Shown here: positions 10,005-16,980 of the stretch, piece by piece
Layout of the letters: every line of letters starts with the position of its first letter
How positions within the stretch are numbered: the stretch's first letter is position 1
Source of the DNA: Dongia rigui
GTDB lineage: Bacteria > Pseudomonadota > Alphaproteobacteria > Dongiales > Dongiaceae
Length of the DNA: 64,000 nt
Direction: 5' to 3'
Assembly (NCBI RefSeq): GCF_034044635.1
Contig: NZ_JAXCLX010000001.1
Coordinates: 310,001-374,000, forward strand
Notes under the pieces: model-generated
The model's database searches: none
Seen by the model: the letters and a program-made list of their open reading frames with translations, nothing else
Told to the model about the DNA's origin: nothing
Position numbers and translations under genes: made by a program

Positions 10005-10883
10005 CTATGCCCGCGGTGTCGCCGGGGCCGCACCGAAAGCGGTCGGCGCCTTGATGCCGCCGGTGAGCCCGTAGATGCCGCGCTGGCCGGGCAGCAACTG
10101 GAACTTGTCCGAGATGCCAAGCACGGTCTCGGCACCGCCAAGAAACAAAAAGCCATCATCGGGCATCTGCTTGGCGATACCGGCAAGGACCTTGGACTTG
10201 GTCGGCTGGTCGAAATAGATCAGCACGTTGCGGCAATAGACGATGTCGAACTTGCCCAAGGGCGCTGGGTCATTGAGCAGGTTCCACTCGCGGTACTGCA
10301 CCTTGTTGCGAATGGTGTCCGAAAGCTTCCAGCGATCGCCGGTCTGCTGGAAATATTTCACCAGCAGCGTGATCGGCAGGCCGCGCTGCACCTCGAACTG
10401 AGAGTACATGCCTTCCTTGGCGCGGTTGAGAATTTCCTGCGACAGGTCGGTACCAACAATGTCGATCTTCCAGCCATTGAGCTGCGCCCCCATCTCGGAC
10501 AGGATCATGGCCAGCGAATAGGCTTCCTGCCCCGACGAGCAGGCAGCCGACCAGATGCGAAGGGTTTTCTGCGCGGCACGTGCCTTGAGCATCGCCGGCA
10601 GGCAAATCTGCTTGAACTGATCGAAGGGCTTGGTGTCGCGGAAGAAGAAGGACTCATTCGTGGTCATCGCCTCGACCACGTCGCGGATGACCGCTTCGTC
10701 ATTCTTGGTCCGGATGAGACGCACGAGATCGTCAAAGGTTGCGAGCTTCCACTTGCGCGCGACCGGCAACAGGCGGCTCTCCAACAGATATGCCTTGTCG
10801 TTGGTCAGCAACAGGCCCGACCGGGTCTTCAGGATCTGGCAAATGAAGTCGAAGTCCGTGATCGTCATCGACGGTTGCCTCAT
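10005..10883 (-). CDS. cheR: Chemotaxis protein methyltransferase CheR
   Basis: A 292-residue S-adenosylmethionine-dependent methyltransferase that methylates glutamates of chemoreceptors. The N-terminal helical domain (TITDFDFICQILKTRSG) is followed by the SAM fold with LRIWSAACSSGQEAYSLAM and the FDIVYCRNVLIYF motif. The start at 10883 was chosen because its ATG overlaps the cheB stop by four bases; an internal ATG at 10868 (MTITDF) is the alternative. It is the last gene of the minus-strand cheB-cheR unit. A C-terminal receptor-binding pentapeptide question does not arise, because no MCP is in the window. Confidence 0.93.
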   Translation of the reverse strand: MRQPSMTITDFDFICQILKTRSGLLLTNDKAYLLESRLLPVARKWKLATFDDLVRLIRTKNDEAVIRDVVEAMTTNESFFFRDTKPFDQFKQICLPAMLKARAAQKTLRIWSAACSSGQEAYSLAMILSEMGAQLNGWKIDIVGTDLSQEILNRAKEGMYSQFEVQRGLPITLLVKYFQQTGDRWKLSDTIRNKVQYREWNLLNDPAPLGKFDIVYCRNVLIYFDQPTKSKVLAGIAKQMPDDGFLFLGGAETVLGISDKFQLLPGQRGIYGLTGGIKAPTAFGAAPATPRA

Positions 10884-12040
10884 GTCCCGCTGCGGAAGAT
10901 CGTCTTTTTGACGAATGGGCCGATATCGGCGAGCGGAAGAACCGCTGAACAAAGACCCGCAGTCGCCACGGCGCCGGGCATACCCCACACCACAGAACTT
11001 GGTTCGTCTTGGGCGATCACAGTTCCCCCAGCATTGGTCAGTTCCTGTGCCCCCTTCAAACCATCCTGCCCCATTCCCGTGAGCATGACAAACAATGTCT
11101 TGGCTCCGTAAACCTTGGCAATGGAACGCAGCATGGGATCGACCGCAGGGCGGCAGAAATTCTCAGGTGGGTTCTTGTTAAGTCGGACGACGCGCTGCAC
11201 CGCTGTACCTTCGACAACCATGTGATAGTCGCCGGGCGCCACATAGATGCGTCCTGCCACAACCGGTTCGCCATCCTTGGCTTCAGCCGATGGCATGCCC
11301 GCCGCCTGGCCCAGATGTTCAGCAAGAATGGTGGTAAAGGTTGCCGGCATGTGCTGTGTCACAAAGACCGGCAAATGCGTGATCTTGCCGACTGCCTGGA
11401 ACACCTTGAACAATGCCTGCGGGCCGCCTGTTGATGAACCGATAGCCAGGCAATCCGGCTTCAGCAAGGGCGGCATGTCGCGCAGTTTTACCGGCTGCGA
11501 GCCGTAAAGACGTTTCAGTGCGGTCGGTGCCGCGGCCCCGGGCTCGCCTGTCGGCGAAGGCGCCGCGATGCCGCGCTTGCGACGGCCGGCCTGGGCCCAG
11601 GATTTCACCTTCTCGACGAGGTCTGCCTTGAAATCGGTGGCGGCAGAAATGGCGCCAGTCGTGGTCGGCTTCGGCACATAATCGGAAGCACCCAGCGACA
11701 TCGCCTTCATCGACACCGACGCCCCTTTGAGGGTGAGCGTCGAGGCCATGATCACCGCGACGCCAGGCTTCGTTTGCAACAGGCGCGGCAGTGCCGTCAG
11801 GCCATCCATCACCGGCATCTCGATATCGAGCACGATGACTTCAATGTCATTGTCCGGGCGCGCCAGGGCGTCGATGGCCAACTGCCCGTTGCCGACCGTG
11901 GTGACCACTTTGATAGCCGGGTCGGATTCCAATGCGCGGGTCAGCAAGCCGCGAATGACGGCGGAGTCATCCACCACCATGACGCGATACGGTCCGGCCT
12001 TACCGCCGGCGCCCGCTGCTGCCGCTTTGAAGGGTGTCAT
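10880..12040 (-). CDS. cheB: Chemotaxis response regulator protein-glutamate methylesterase CheB
   Basis: A 386-residue protein with a receiver domain (DD at 24-25, phosphoacceptor Asp72 in VLDIEMPVMDG), a linker, then the methylesterase domain with catalytic Ser202 (AIGSSTGGPQ), His230 (VTQHMPATF) and Asp326 (TGMGQDG). It demethylates or deamidates chemoreceptors when phosphorylated by CheA and works against CheR, with which it overlaps. The 75-base gap to cheY may contain its own promoter. Confidence 0.96.
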   Translation of the reverse strand: MTPFKAAAAGAGGKAGPYRVMVVDDSAVIRGLLTRALESDPAIKVVTTVGNGQLAIDALARPDNDIEVIVLDIEMPVMDGLTALPRLLQTKPGVAVIMASTLTLKGASVSMKAMSLGASDYVPKPTTTGAISAATDFKADLVEKVKSWAQAGRRKRGIAAPSPTGEPGAAAPTALKRLYGSQPVKLRDMPPLLKPDCLAIGSSTGGPQALFKVFQAVGKITHLPVFVTQHMPATFTTILAEHLGQAAGMPSAEAKDGEPVVAGRIYVAPGDYHMVVEGTAVQRVVRLNKNPPENFCRPAVDPMLRSIAKVYGAKTLFVMLTGMGQDGLKGAQELTNAGGTVIAQDEPSSVVWGMPGAVATAGLCSAVLPLADIGPFVKKTIFRSGT

Positions 12041-12115: not shown

Positions 12116-12481
12116 TCACAACAAACCGACCTGGGAGAACTTCGATTCGATGATCTCACTGTCGAACGGCTTCATGATGTACTCGTTGGCGCCCGCCGTG
12201 ATGGCCTCCTGGATGTGCTGGATGTCGTTTTCCGTCGTGCAGAACACCACGATAGGAGTCTGGCCGCCATCCATCTTGCGCAGCAAGCGCAGGAACTCGA
12301 TCCCGCTCATGACTGGCATGTTCCAGTCGAGCAGAATGGCGTCAGGCATTTCCTTGACGCACTCTTCCATGGCGAGTTTGCCGTTTTCGGCTTCGACGAT
12401 CTGGAAGTTGAGGCCCTCAAGAATCTTGCGGGCCACCATGCGGACGACTTTGGAATCGTCAACCACGAGGCAAGACTTCAT
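12116..12481 (-). CDS. cheY: Chemotaxis response regulator CheY
   Basis: A 121-residue stand-alone receiver domain: acidic pair DD at residues 8-9, phosphoacceptor Asp52 (LLDWNMPVMSG), the conserved Thr in VVFCTTEND and the Lys of IMKPFD. CheY carries the phosphate from CheA to the flagellar motor switch. The position between cheW and cheB matches alphaproteobacterial che clusters. A 197-base gap separates it from cheW and could hold a promoter; an imperfect hairpin sits at 12637-12652 there without a T-run. Confidence 0.92.
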   Translation of the reverse strand: MKSCLVVDDSKVVRMVARKILEGLNFQIVEAENGKLAMEECVKEMPDAILLDWNMPVMSGIEFLRLLRKMDGGQTPIVVFCTTENDIQHIQEAITAGANEYIMKPFDSEIIESKFSQVGLL

Positions 12482-12678: not shown

Positions 12679-13182
12679 TTAGGCAACGTCCGAACGCGTA
12701 CCGAAGTCCAGCAAGGAGCCGACATTCAGGACGACCAGCAGCGACCCGTTGAGGCGATAGATTCCGTCCGAGAACTCGCGCAGGCGCGGGCTCAGGGTCG
12801 GCGGGTTGCGCTGGTAGTCGCGCGAATTGAGGCTCAACACCTCACCGACGCTGTCGACCAGCAGGCTGTAGAGTTCGCCGTCGTGTTCGACGACCACCGA
12901 CATCGCCGCCTTGCCGCCCTCGCGGGTCGCCAGGCCAAGGCGCGGTCGCACGTCGATCGCCGTTACGATGCGGCCGCGCAGATTGAGGCTGCCGGCCACT
13001 TCGGGCGGCGCCAGCGGCACACGCGCGATGTTCTGTGGCCCGAGCACGTCCTGGACGGTCAGCACCGGAATCCCGAACATCTGGTCGCCGATCGACATGG
13101 TCACGTAATCGCGCTGTTCGCCATTGTTGGTCGAAACAGTTGCGCCGAAATCCGACCCGGCGCCATTCGTCATCCCGCTCAT
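12679..13182 (-). CDS. cheW: Chemotaxis coupling protein CheW
   Basis: A 167-residue CheW/SH3-like protein. The core reads YVTMSIGDQMFGIPVLTVQD, GSLNLRGRIVTAIDVRPRLGL and LLVDSVGEVLSL, the usual order of the CheW fold. It couples chemoreceptors to CheA. About 18 residues precede the core. It overlaps the cheA stop by four bases, so the two are translationally coupled. Confidence 0.94.
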   Translation of the reverse strand: MSGMTNGAGSDFGATVSTNNGEQRDYVTMSIGDQMFGIPVLTVQDVLGPQNIARVPLAPPEVAGSLNLRGRIVTAIDVRPRLGLATREGGKAAMSVVVEHDGELYSLLVDSVGEVLSLNSRDYQRNPPTLSPRLREFSDGIYRLNGSLLVVLNVGSLLDFGTRSDVA

Positions 13183-16136
13183 GCGGCACCTCGCACTTCA
13201 GAAAGAGCTTCGTTGAGAATATGCACCAGGCCTTCGCGATCATACTTGGCGACGTAGTCGTCGAACCCGACTTCGCGGCCCTTGGCCAGTTCTTTCGGGC
13301 TGGCATGGGACGACAGGGCGATGATCGGCGTCTGCTGCCAGCGGCCGCTCTTCTTCACGGCCTCGCAGAAGGCAAAGCCATCCATCCCCGGCATCTCGAT
13401 GTCCGAGATGATAAGATCGAATTCCTCACCGGCTTCGGCCAGTTCCATCGCCTTGTCACCGCTGTCGACCGCTGTCACCGAGAAACCGGCCGCGGCCAGC
13501 TGCGGCGCCAGCAGATTGCGGAAGAAGGCACTGTCATCAACCATCAGCACGCGGCGCGCCTTGTCGCCCACCGAGTCTTCGCGGCGCGAGCCGAACCAAT
13601 CGGCAAATGCCTGCGACAGGAAGAAGCCGGTATCGATGATGTCGGTGGCCTGGCCGGCGATGATCGCCGAACCGATACGGCCCGGAGTCTCGGCGGCGAG
13701 ATCGACATTGAGCTTCGCTTCGACGATGTCGACGATCTCATCGACCATCAGCCCCATCGAATGCTCGCGGTCAGAGAAGACCAGGACCGGCTGACGGCCT
13801 TCCTTGCCACTCATATCCGGATAGCCTTCGAGCGGCACCAGCGGCATCAATTGGCCGCGATACTGCACGACGAGTCGATCGTTCGAACGTTCGATCGCCG
13901 TACGTTCGATTTCCTCGAGACGCGCGACCAGCGCCAATGGCACGGCCTTTGGGGCACCTTCGCCGGCACGGAACAACAGCAGCGGCACGGCTTCATCGCC
14001 ATGCGCCCGGCTGCGCAGCGCCTGCTTCTCGGCGGCATCGGCATCGCCCATGCTGATCTGGCCCGATGCGGCAGCGATACCGTTCGGATCCAGGATCATG
14101 ATGACCGAGCCATCGCCCAGAATGGTATTGCCGGAGAACACTTCGATATGGCGCAGGATCGGCGCCACTGGCTTCACAACGATTTCTTCCGTGTCGAACA
14201 CACGGTCGACCATGATGCCGAACTGATAGGTGCCGACCTGGGTCACGACGATGAAAGTATCGTCGCTGCTGCGGTCGGTCTCCGCCTGCAGCTTCAATTT
14301 CTCGCGCAGCGAGACCAGCGGCAACAGCTTGTTGCGAAGGCGCAGGATCGGCGTGTCGTTGATGCGCTCGACCTTCAGCTCGCCGGTCGGCGATGCGCGG
14401 ACGAGTTCGACAACGCTGATCTGCGGAATGGCGAAACGCTCGGCGGCGCATTCGACGACCAGCGCCGAGACGATCGCGAGGGTCAGCGGAATCTTGATCG
14501 AGAAGCTGGTGCCCTTGCCTTCGACCGAGCGCAGCTCAATGGTGCCGCCGATCTTTTCGATGTTGGTGCGCACGACATCCATGCCGACGCCACGACCAGA
14601 GACGCTGGTCACCTTAGCGGCAGTCGAGAAGCCGGCCTTGAAGATATACTGCTGGATCTGCTGATCCGACATGTTCTCCAGCTCGCCTTCGGTAGCGAGG
14701 TTGTTCTGGAGAATCTTCGCCTTGATCTTGTCGAGGGCGAGGCCTTTGCCGTCATCATTCACTTCGATGATGATGTGGCCGCCTTCGTGATAGGCGTTGA
14801 GCGTGATCTTGCCGGTTTCCGGCTTGCCCGCGCGGCGGCGCTCTTCCGGAATCTCGATGGCGTGGTCGGCCGAATTGCGCACCATGTGGGTGAGCGGATC
14901 CTTGATCATCTCAAGGACCTGGCGGTCGAGTTCGGTTTCCTGGCCGATCATGACCAGGTCGATCTTCTTCTTCAATTCGTGGCTAAGGTCGCGAATGATG
15001 CGCGGCAGCTTGGCCCAGGCATTGCCGATCGGCTGCATGCGCGTCTTCATGACGCCTTCCTGCAGCTCGGACGTTACGTGATTGAGGCGCTGCAATGGCG
15101 CCGCGAATTCGCTGTCCTTGTGCTTGCGCAAGATCTGCAGGACCTGGTTGCGGGTCAGCACAAGTTCGCTGACCATGGTCATCAGATTCTCGAGCAACTC
15201 GACATTGACGCGGATGCTTTGATTGGCGATCGCCGATTCCTTGGTATCGGCATCGGCCGTTTCCTTCTTGGCCGGAGCCGCCTTGACGGGCTTGGCTTCG
15301 ACCGGGGCGGGTGCCGCCTCGACAGCGGCCGGGGCAACGCCCGTCGCTTCTTCGCGCATGGCATAGACCATGCCCATGATCATCGCCGCGATCTGTTGCG
15401 GCACTTCCAGCGTGTTGAGCGCCGCCTGCAGATGGCCGCAGAGGGCATCAAACTGCACGTCCGACATGGCGCGGCCAGAGATTGGATGCGGCGCGGTAGT
15501 GGCTGGGCCACCGCACATCTGTGCCAGGTGGTCGCGCATGTAGCCTTGGACGTGATCGATGCTGTCGCCTTCGAACACGGTCTTCAGCCGGAGATCGCCC
15601 ATGATGCGGTTGAACATCACTTCGACCACGGCATCGACCGTGCCCATGCCGCCGATCTGCTCATAGATCGACGCGCCGGACTTGGCTTCCGCCGCGGCGG
15701 GTGCTGCGGGTGCTGCTGGCGCCGGGGCGGGCGCGGCTGCTGCGGCAGGTGCTGCCGCCTTGCCGTCGGCAAAGGCGTTGAGGCTCTTGATCAGTTCCGA
15801 GTCATCGCCTTCCGGCTCGGTGCCGGTCGCTTCGAGATCACCCATGATCGAGCGAATGCGGTCCAGACAGGCGAGAATGAGGGTTACCGCCTGGGCGGTA
15901 ACTTCCAGCTCACCATCGCGCACCTTGCCGAGGACGTTCTCGCCCGCATGCGCCACCGATTCGAGGCGCGGCAGGCCGAGGAAGCCGCAGGTGCCTTTCA
16001 CCGTATGCACCAGTCGGAAGATATTCGACAGCAAGTCGATATCGTTGGGATTTTGTTCGAGCTTCACGAGCTCGACATCGAGTACGGCGAGATTCTCGTT
16101 GGTTTCGGTCAGAAACTCGCTCAACAGATCGTCCAT
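13179..16136 (-). CDS. cheA: Hybrid chemotaxis kinase CheA with an embedded truncated-globin-like domain and C-terminal receiver
   Basis: A 985-residue CheA. Domains in order: P1 Hpt with phosphorylated His44 (RLVHTVKGTCG); an Ala/Pro linker (126-152); a truncated-haemoglobin-like domain (about 154-263: SIYEQIGG, then MCGGP, SGRAM, FDALCGHLQAAL); a second Ala/Pro linker; the P3 dimerisation helices from about 302; the P4 kinase with NSADHAIE (421-428), DDGKGL (461-466) and GRGVGM (514-519); a P5 CheW-like domain (about 550-690); a second, more divergent CheW-like domain (about 712-845); and a receiver domain (862-980) with Asp912. A standard CheA has about 650 residues, with the CheY-binding P2 where the globin-like domain sits here. 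It heads the minus-strand cheA-cheW unit. Confidence 0.95.
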   Translation of the reverse strand: MDDLLSEFLTETNENLAVLDVELVKLEQNPNDIDLLSNIFRLVHTVKGTCGFLGLPRLESVAHAGENVLGKVRDGELEVTAQAVTLILACLDRIRSIMGDLEATGTEPEGDDSELIKSLNAFADGKAAAPAAAAAPAPAPAAPAAPAAAEAKSGASIYEQIGGMGTVDAVVEVMFNRIMGDLRLKTVFEGDSIDHVQGYMRDHLAQMCGGPATTAPHPISGRAMSDVQFDALCGHLQAALNTLEVPQQIAAMIMGMVYAMREEATGVAPAAVEAAPAPVEAKPVKAAPAKKETADADTKESAIANQSIRVNVELLENLMTMVSELVLTRNQVLQILRKHKDSEFAAPLQRLNHVTSELQEGVMKTRMQPIGNAWAKLPRIIRDLSHELKKKIDLVMIGQETELDRQVLEMIKDPLTHMVRNSADHAIEIPEERRRAGKPETGKITLNAYHEGGHIIIEVNDDGKGLALDKIKAKILQNNLATEGELENMSDQQIQQYIFKAGFSTAAKVTSVSGRGVGMDVVRTNIEKIGGTIELRSVEGKGTSFSIKIPLTLAIVSALVVECAAERFAIPQISVVELVRASPTGELKVERINDTPILRLRNKLLPLVSLREKLKLQAETDRSSDDTFIVVTQVGTYQFGIMVDRVFDTEEIVVKPVAPILRHIEVFSGNTILGDGSVIMILDPNGIAAASGQISMGDADAAEKQALRSRAHGDEAVPLLLFRAGEGAPKAVPLALVARLEEIERTAIERSNDRLVVQYRGQLMPLVPLEGYPDMSGKEGRQPVLVFSDREHSMGLMVDEIVDIVEAKLNVDLAAETPGRIGSAIIAGQATDIIDTGFFLSQAFADWFGSRREDSVGDKARRVLMVDDSAFFRNLLAPQLAAAGFSVTAVDSGDKAMELAEAGEEFDLIISDIEMPGMDGFAFCEAVKKSGRWQQTPIIALSSHASPKELAKGREVGFDDYVAKYDREGLVHILNEALSEVRGAA

Positions 16137-16350: not shown

Positions 16351-16980
16351 TTAGAGGATGCGGAAATCTAGACGCCCGACACCGTGCTGGCTGGCTTCGA
16401 TCTTCAATTTCAGCCGGGTCGCCACCAGGCCGGTGAGGTAGGCCAGGACATTGCGGGCATCGAGGGGTGCCGCCCCCGAATCGCCGGACAGCAGCATCTT
16501 CACGTCATCGGCAAAGACGATCTGGCTACCTTCGGCCGTGATGGTGAAGCGAGCGGCCTCCCCCTCGCCGGTCACGCTTAGGGCCAGGTCGCCACCCCGC
16601 GGCAGGGTCTCGGACAACAGGATAACCCCCACCAGCAGCAGTTTGGACCAGCCGCCGGGCAAGTCGCTGGGCGACATGGCCGGCACGCCCGAGAGCGTCA
16701 CCCGCCCGCCCTCCAGGTAGTCGCGCGCGAGCTTTATGGCCTCGCCAAAGCCGAAACTGGCCTGATTGCCGGCATTGCCCAGGGCACAGCGATATGCCTG
16801 CAGCAGGATCGAAGCGCGCCGCGCAGACCTTGCCGCCAGCGCCCGGGCCTCGGCCACCAGTTCCGGGTCCTGCTCGTCCTCCAGCAATTCCAACCCGTTA
16901 TTGACAGCGCCGATCGGGCTGATCAGGTCGTGGCAAAGGCGCGAGCAGGTCAGTTCGAGGACGGCGAGGTCAATTTTCAT
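16351..16980 (-). CDS. chpT: Histidine phosphotransferase ChpT
   Basis: A 209-residue protein whose N-terminus carries the DHp-like helix CHDLISPIGAVNNGLELL with the phosphorylatable histidine at position 17, diagnostic of ChpT. The C-terminal part is a degenerate HATPase-like fold that does not bind ATP. ChpT moves phosphate from the hybrid kinase CckA to CtrA and CpdR. It lies upstream of cheA on the same strand, so it could be co-transcribed with the che genes. Confidence 0.9.
   Translation of the reverse strand: MKIDLAVLELTCSRLCHDLISPIGAVNNGLELLEDEQDPELVAEARALAARSARRASILLQAYRCALGNAGNQASFGFGEAIKLARDYLEGGRVTLSGVPAMSPSDLPGGWSKLLLVGVILLSETLPRGGDLALSVTGEGEAARFTITAEGSQIVFADDVKMLLSGDSGAAPLDARNVLAYLTGLVATRLKLKIEASQHGVGRLDFRIL

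Follow-up and report, generated by a model that had tools for sequence, protein, structure and literature searches.

In the part of the CheA architecture survey by Berry, Andrianova and Zhulin (2023, PMC10782961) that was available to us, CheA is described as a histidine kinase without a sensor domain that relies on receptors. The same part of the survey records the loss of P2 in more than half of CheAs, the presence of receiver domains, CheC/CheX fusions and a 50-residue CheW insertion, and an F5 class with two CheW domains and a receiver; most receiver-bearing CheAs are without P2. The words "globin", "heme" and "haem" have zero occurrences in its main text. Here, we analyzed a CheA of Dongia rigui (Alphaproteobacteria, family Dongiaceae according to NCBI), encoded in a 64,000-nucleotide stretch of contig NZ_JAXCLX010000001.1 (positions 310,001 to 374,000, hereafter the window), in which a truncated-haemoglobin domain lies in the linker between the Hpt (P1) and dimerisation (P3) domains. 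By architecture alone this CheA is F5-like, sharing with the class, as the available text of PMC10782961 presents it, the Hpt domain, P3, P4, two CheW stretches, a receiver domain and the lack of a Pfam P2; it differs in the globin added between P1 and P3.

Globins are linked to chemotaxis in another way in the globin-coupled sensors (HemAT and its relatives, PF11563). There, according to the accessible portion of an aerotaxis review (PMC13401364), an N-terminal sensor globin sits on an output domain, whereas the Dongia globin is of the truncated type and lies inside the kinase. Neither "truncated" nor "hemoglobin" occurs in that portion of the review. The match of the Dongia domain to the protoglobin family PF11563 stayed below the cut-off (E 0.14, 12.6 bits against 25), and the domain is internal. 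A globin-fold module that has haem in some members of one signalling family and lacks it in others is known from the stressosome protein RsbR, for which an excerpt of PMC9237108 describes a haem globin in Vibrio vulnificus and a non-haem globin N-domain in the Bacillus type. The Vibrio-type protein has a protoglobin rather than a truncated globin and no kinase is involved; homology is not claimed. HemAT deprived of its haem binds ethanol, as stated in the part of PMC7542364 consulted, which provides a precedent for haem-free globin signalling. An earlier reading of the window, made from the sequence alone (the sequence-only reading), knew of no CheA with such a globin; we likewise found no account of one in the literature searched, which took in few subscription papers, and the family of CheA-embedded truncated globins appears undescribed there.

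The domain was identified by several searches. Pfam Bac_globin (PF01152) matched residues 156-264 (15345..15671, minus strand) with an E-value of 1.2e-9 and 38.9 bits when the whole CheA was searched, and with 5.6e-11 and 43.1 bits (cut-off 21) when the segment was searched alone. The top phmmer match among PDB sequences was the group I globin HbN (E 8.2e-12). Truncated-type globins made up 26 of the 28 distinct PDB sequences at E ≤ 1, the remaining two (7zrn and 4ovt; E 0.49 and 0.95) being unrelated. When a profile was made solely of CheA globins from beyond the window's order (17 sequences), the Dongia domain scored 90 bits with it, compared to 7.5 for the best of 1000 shuffles. The AlphaFold2 model of the domain was confident (mean pLDDT 90.9, pTM 0.84) and contained six helices (A, B, C, E, G and H by our own assignment), with none in the F region. 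Foldseek placed HbN first when queried with this model (E 3.3e-6, TM-score 0.89 normalised by query, identity about 30%), and the best 50 of its 296 matches were all truncated-type haemoglobins. Both Gly-Gly motifs of truncated haemoglobins, as defined in PMC4720485 (excerpt), were present, one between helices A and B (G162-G163) and one at the end of helix E (G209-G210). The insert in the P1-P3 linker is a true truncated-haemoglobin fold of group I.

This bears out much of the sequence-only reading, which had seen group I truncated-haemoglobin likeness in residues 154-263 (15677-15348, minus strand), framed by Ala/Pro linkers, and had named a profile search, a structure prediction and a survey of related CheA proteins as checks. 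Its coordinates and motifs were correct, the linkers are visible in the translation on either side of the segment, the profile search and the predicted structure returned a globin, and the survey found the insertion throughout most of the window's order (see below).

We then compared the haem pocket with that of HbN, whose residue numbering was followed (offset 142). Tyr at B10 and Gln at E11 have a role in the distal pocket of HbN. Both residues are named in the titles of HbN entries in the PDB. The Dongia domain had neither: B10 was Phe (F175) and E11 was Met (M200), with Val at E7 and Phe at CD1 (F188), the last being shared with HbN-type globins. The position E10 was occupied by Tyr (Y199) and not by a basic residue. 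The domain contained no His at F8, and its F region (residues 212-225, ATTAPHPISGRAMS; 15462..15503, minus strand) was seven residues shorter in the alignment than in F8-bearing relatives. In truncated haemoglobins, the F8 His is a strictly conserved haem ligand and a basic E10 supports haem, according to the excerpt of PMC4720485. The nearest His of the Dongia domain, H217, was replaced by Asn in two genomes of the genus (G003 and G004) and by Ser in a third (G005), and no F-region His was conserved across the seven genomes of the genus. Because the F8 His, B10 Tyr, E11 Gln and basic E10 are gone, haem binding by the Dongia CheA is unlikely; as judged from these residues, its globin is probably haem-free now. 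The sequence-only reading had overlooked the F8 loss when it proposed direct gas or haem sensing by this kinase, a proposal that the shortened proximal-His region and the variable H217 speak against.

The state of F8 differed between globin types. The F8 His was kept in 30/30 free-standing globins, which had been picked by matches to Pfam and to the CheA-globin profile, a choice that favours regular globins, and in 16 of the 31 CheA P1-P3 globins (15 were without it). It was also kept in both globins inserted in P5 and in both globins joined to proteins of the PAS/MCP type; the single CheW fusion lacked it. The combination of F8 His, B10 Tyr and CD1 Phe or Tyr was found in eight of the 31 embedded P1-P3 domains and in both P5 inserts, and haem sensing is plausible, on these residues, for the CheAs that retain it. 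Within the window's family, F8 His was present in seven genomes (G008, G009, G011, G012, G013, G015 and G016) and replaced by Lys in two (G010 and G014); none of the seven genomes in the window's genus retained it. Given this variation within one family, the ancestral CheA insert most likely carried the F8 ligand. The ligand was most likely lost three to five times, including in the window's genus: three losses are counted on the globin tree, and five if the window's genus, genus g5, families f87 and f104 and the second CheA of genome G241 are taken as separate. A second structure model, of an F8-bearing globin (L068), was of lower confidence than that of the Dongia domain (pLDDT 81.2).

The distribution of CheA-embedded globins was assessed in the window's order and in the class. 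In the order, the globin was found in the CheA of 16 of the 17 genomes, all 17 of them in one family. The class sample comprised 385 genomes of Alphaproteobacteria, of which 133 had a strong CheA match (E ≤ 1e-140). The N-terminal parts of CheA were inspected for 130 of these 133 genomes (G071, G084 and G355 were left out); seven stretches in which the P3 pattern was unmatched were searched as open frames only, and P1 went unseen in three, contig ends being the cause in some. A clear P1-P3 globin was detected in 19 of the 133 genomes. The carriers belonged to 10 families: f1 (five genomes), f87 (three genomes), f81, f104 and f123 (two genomes each), and f59, f91, f95, f102 and f113. A scan with Bac_globin across the phylum covered 398 genomes. 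Among the matches listed, the five outside the class in frames longer than 300 aa were fetched, with two long frames inside the class (G533 and G700) set aside, and none of the five was a CheA; four were long frames with a free-type globin at their end and one was a tandem pair. Plasmid records were searched for named carriers outside the order. Among the best 30 of 69 matching records, similarity was confined to the P1 part of CheA in 12 from Azospirillum and in two more high-ranking ones; further rows were similar to free group 1 truncated haemoglobins or to P1. One row, which covered 88% of the query, was the CheA of Methylosinus trichosporium OB3b; it was rejected as a carrier, as it had no Pfam globin and scored -2.9 bits with the profile.

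Among free-standing globins, the nearest relatives belonged to the group I truncated haemoglobins of the class, and one of them (L034) was encoded in a genome of the window's family (G011). On a globin tree of 50 rows, from which 16 free globins of group II type had been excluded beforehand, all 31 P1-P3 globins fell outside a supported group (95/95) in which seven free globins stood together with the MCP-type globins and one P5 insert. Six rows of this tree had long branches, and the pairing of the P1-P3 globin from G096 with the CheW fusion was flagged as doubtful. On a tree of the CheA core (53 rows, 30 with globin), the presence of the globin required seven changes, at least two of them forced. 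Among named contigs, the closest match to the CheA globin of the window was found in a metagenome genome (L061, 96% identity over the domain). Outside the order, the best matches of the Dongia domain were CheA globins (33% identity, G138), with free globins close behind (32%). The second Bac_globin of the Dongia genome itself (L002, C2:794578-794892, 23 bits, in a 207-aa frame) was tried as a source and discarded, since the CheA-globin profile A1 gave no match to it. The most likely history is that CheA took up a haem-carrying globin, which turned into a regulatory module of the P1-P3 linker and later lost haem repeatedly.

The sequence-only reading had placed the globin where P2 normally lies. 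This holds by position, between the Hpt domain and P3; that a P2 was replaced is another matter, as 10/10 globin-free relatives showed no Pfam P2 or CheY-binding match in HMMER searches. In the Dongia CheA itself, no such match was obtained up to an E-value of 1. The P2-less state of the globin-free relatives suggests that the globin probably entered a linker that was already without P2. The P1-P3 linker of globin-free CheAs measured 65-154 residues in 93 of the 94 parsed cases (median 112). A motif close to FPVAAELLAE was detected by pattern in five of 103 P1-P3 linkers, those of the globin-free CheAs L210, L228, L231, L238 and L244, twice in L228 and L244, and was seen by eye in two more (L024 and L025); it is a possible docking motif.

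Two residues of the E helix set CheA globins apart. Gln at E8 was found in 27/31 CheA P1-P3 globins versus 0/30 free-standing globins, and Arg at E12 in 25/31 CheA P1-P3 globins. Gln E8 was present in 14 of the 15 CheA globins without F8 His, and E8/E12 was the sole CheA-specific signature found that outlasts ligand loss. In the Dongia domain, these residues belong to the stretch Q-G-Y-M-R (residues 197-201; 15534..15548, minus strand). The pair would be compatible with a single origin followed by many losses as well as with a shared contact face.

Selection on the domain was estimated by pairwise comparison of coding sequences, with the window's genome designated G000 and six further genomes of the same genus, g1, designated G001-G006. 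The globin dN/dS of G000 was 0.029 with G001, 0.166 with G003, 0.122 with G006 and 0.134 with G002 (dS 0.55-0.91), and 0.316 (also given as 0.32) with G005. Four pairs in genus g4 that keep F8 His yielded 0.18-0.27. All 14 pairs computed had values below 1 (0.03-0.34). Seven linker comparisons were computable; constraint on the linkers was weaker than on the globin in five of them (0.06-0.36) and stronger in the other two, at saturated dS. The CheA globin is thus still under purifying selection, with no obvious relaxation after ligand loss.

We consider it probable, though short of firmly so, that a haem-derived globin in the P1-P3 linker lost its ligand in the window's genus and would now act as a haem-free regulatory or docking module on the P1 arm. 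P1 must move to P4 for phosphorylation. A folded body of 110 residues on the P1 tether could alter how often P1 reaches P4 or CheY. The module would limit or orient the swing of P1 to the ATP site of P4, or it would present a surface to which another protein binds; the best candidate for such a surface is the patch of Gln(E8) and Arg(E12) on the E helix. In F8-bearing relatives, the state of the globin body could depend on haem ligation. In the window's genus, where the body persists but the ligand is gone, what has been kept should be a surface or the steric effect of the body. Only one H-kinase_dim match, that of the globin-bearing CheA, was found in the whole Dongia genome, alongside 40 MCP-signal matches (38 above the cut-off); with a single CheA in the cell, the module would influence the chemotaxis pathway as a whole and not serve as a private receptor. 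The sequence-only reading had offered a docking module as its alternative to sensing, and this part of it fits Dongia best.

Several observations weigh against this interpretation and in favour of others. The globin evolved faster than the kinase core (dN/dS 0-0.11 for P1, P3, P4, P5 and REC in the same comparisons), which is compatible with a loosely constrained spacer. In one genome of the order, G007, the CheA frame is 561 aa long, has a short linker and contains no globin; its branch on the CheA tree is very long, so the frame is perhaps not the orthologue. Decayed globin remnants were found in the CheAs of G153 and G336 (L157 and L187), with domain E-values of 1.9e-6 and 7e-4 in a first set and 1.4e-4 and 0.063 in a second. 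Absence in G007 and decay in L157/L187 mean that the domain can be lost, and all three observations would suit a folded insert that sets linker length only and is slowly decaying. We hold such a passive relic to be quite unlikely, as the domain is under purifying selection in all 14 pairs, is nearly universal in the order and has a confidently predicted fold despite the loss in the F region. A tree in which all 31 P1-P3 globins were kept together was not rejected (p-AU 0.246), so a single origin of all CheA globins is compatible with the data, as several origins would be. The E8/E12 counts are raw, uncorrected for kinship, and the exposure of these residues was deduced from helix numbering. 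P2 was examined by HMMER alone, which overlooks many P2 domains (PMC10782961, part consulted), making the absence of P2 a result that is not final. This last point concerns the possibility that the globin stands in for P2, docking CheY or CheB and speeding phosphotransfer from P1. The globin does occupy the P2 position, its E-helix residues are conserved in F8-bearing and F8-less forms alike, and haem-free globin folds occur in other signalling proteins such as RsbR (PMC9237108, excerpt); still, the globin-free relatives scanned show no Pfam P2 either, globin-free linkers nearly all measure 65-154 residues, and the kinase carries its own C-terminal receiver domain, which makes the replacement unlikely in our judgement.

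A direct sensor, in which the CheA globin binds haem together with O2, NO or CO and gates the kinase without a receptor, seems very unlikely for the Dongia protein, where the iron would need a ligand other than F8 His. A parallel is a globin reported to have Lys-His ligation and its proximal and distal sites exchanged (PMC4476040, in the portion available); a globin without F8 ligation may still bind haem in another way, which likewise counts against a haem-free module. The group I fold, the complete set of F8, B10 and CD1 residues in some P1-P3 domains and in both P5 inserts, and a chemoreceptor of the class that bears such a globin at its N terminus (L116) would agree with sensing; the four pocket residues missing from the Dongia domain, the lack of a conserved F-region His in its genus and the absence of F8 His from 15/31 embedded domains would not. 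More broadly, and tentatively, CheA may be or have been a haemoglobin in several alphaproteobacterial families, sensing O2, NO or redox on the P1 arm and setting the gain of the pathway receptor-free, the domain having since turned into a haem-free allosteric module for another ligand or a partner protein in at least two lineages besides the window's genus and in that genus itself. A haem-type sensor fold occurs inside the CheA of at least 10 alphaproteobacterial families, in addition to globins on CheW, in P5 and on a chemoreceptor; if the proposal is true, signals can enter chemotaxis at the kinase itself. As natural CheA globins with and without the haem ligand both exist, regulation of the kinase by a haem-free globin is directly testable.

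The remaining features of the locus all lie on the minus strand. The cheA gene (13179..16136, 985 aa) has the Pfam layout Hpt-globin-H_kinase_dim-HATPase_c-CheW-CheW-REC. The P1 domain spans residues 3-96 (15849..16130; PF01627, E 1.1e-16) and is followed by the first Ala/Pro linker (residues about 126-153; 15678..15761), with 57-88% identity between species. The second linker, of Ala/Pro/Lys composition (residues 265-304; 15225..15344), showed 53-94% identity between species over residues 266-300. It leads to P3 (residues 305-365; 15042..15224; PF02895), the ATP-binding domain P4 (residues 413-552; 14481..14900; PF02518), the P5 CheW domain (residues 558-688; 14073..14465; PF01584, with two stretches counted in the protein) and the receiver (residues 863-972; 13221..13550; PF00072). 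Downstream of cheA are cheW (12679..13182; Pfam CheW), a cheY-like single-domain response regulator (12116..12481; Response_reg), cheB (10880..12040; CheB_methylest and Response_reg) and cheR (10005..10988; CheR). Upstream is a histidine phosphotransferase of the HPTransfase family (16351..16980; PF10090), which we take to be ChpT-like.

Truncated globins were also observed at other sites of chemotaxis proteins and in unusual arrangements (L numbers denote loci). Two CheAs, L121 (G074:C32, residues 709-827) and L122 (G096:C12, residues 658-776), carry a second truncated globin with F8 His inside their first CheW (P5) domain, where it splits the Pfam CheW match. L128 (G391:C1) is a CheW with a C-terminal truncated globin without F8 His (residues 283-402 of a 402-aa frame). 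L116 (G300:C127) starts with its truncated globin, which is not a protoglobin, and continues with repeated PAS-like units and an MCP signalling domain; L129 (G208:C18) has an N-terminal truncated globin and PAS-like units, its end being cut by the contig end. The genome G241 encodes a CheA with an intact globin (L124) and a second CheA (L178/L275, C391) whose globin has diverged strongly and lacks F8 His. The CheA frame of L006 (G004:C54) is broken by a TAA near the end of the globin, reflecting either an assembly error or a broken gene. Outside the class, L272 (G589:C275) contains two truncated globins in tandem in a 316-aa frame.

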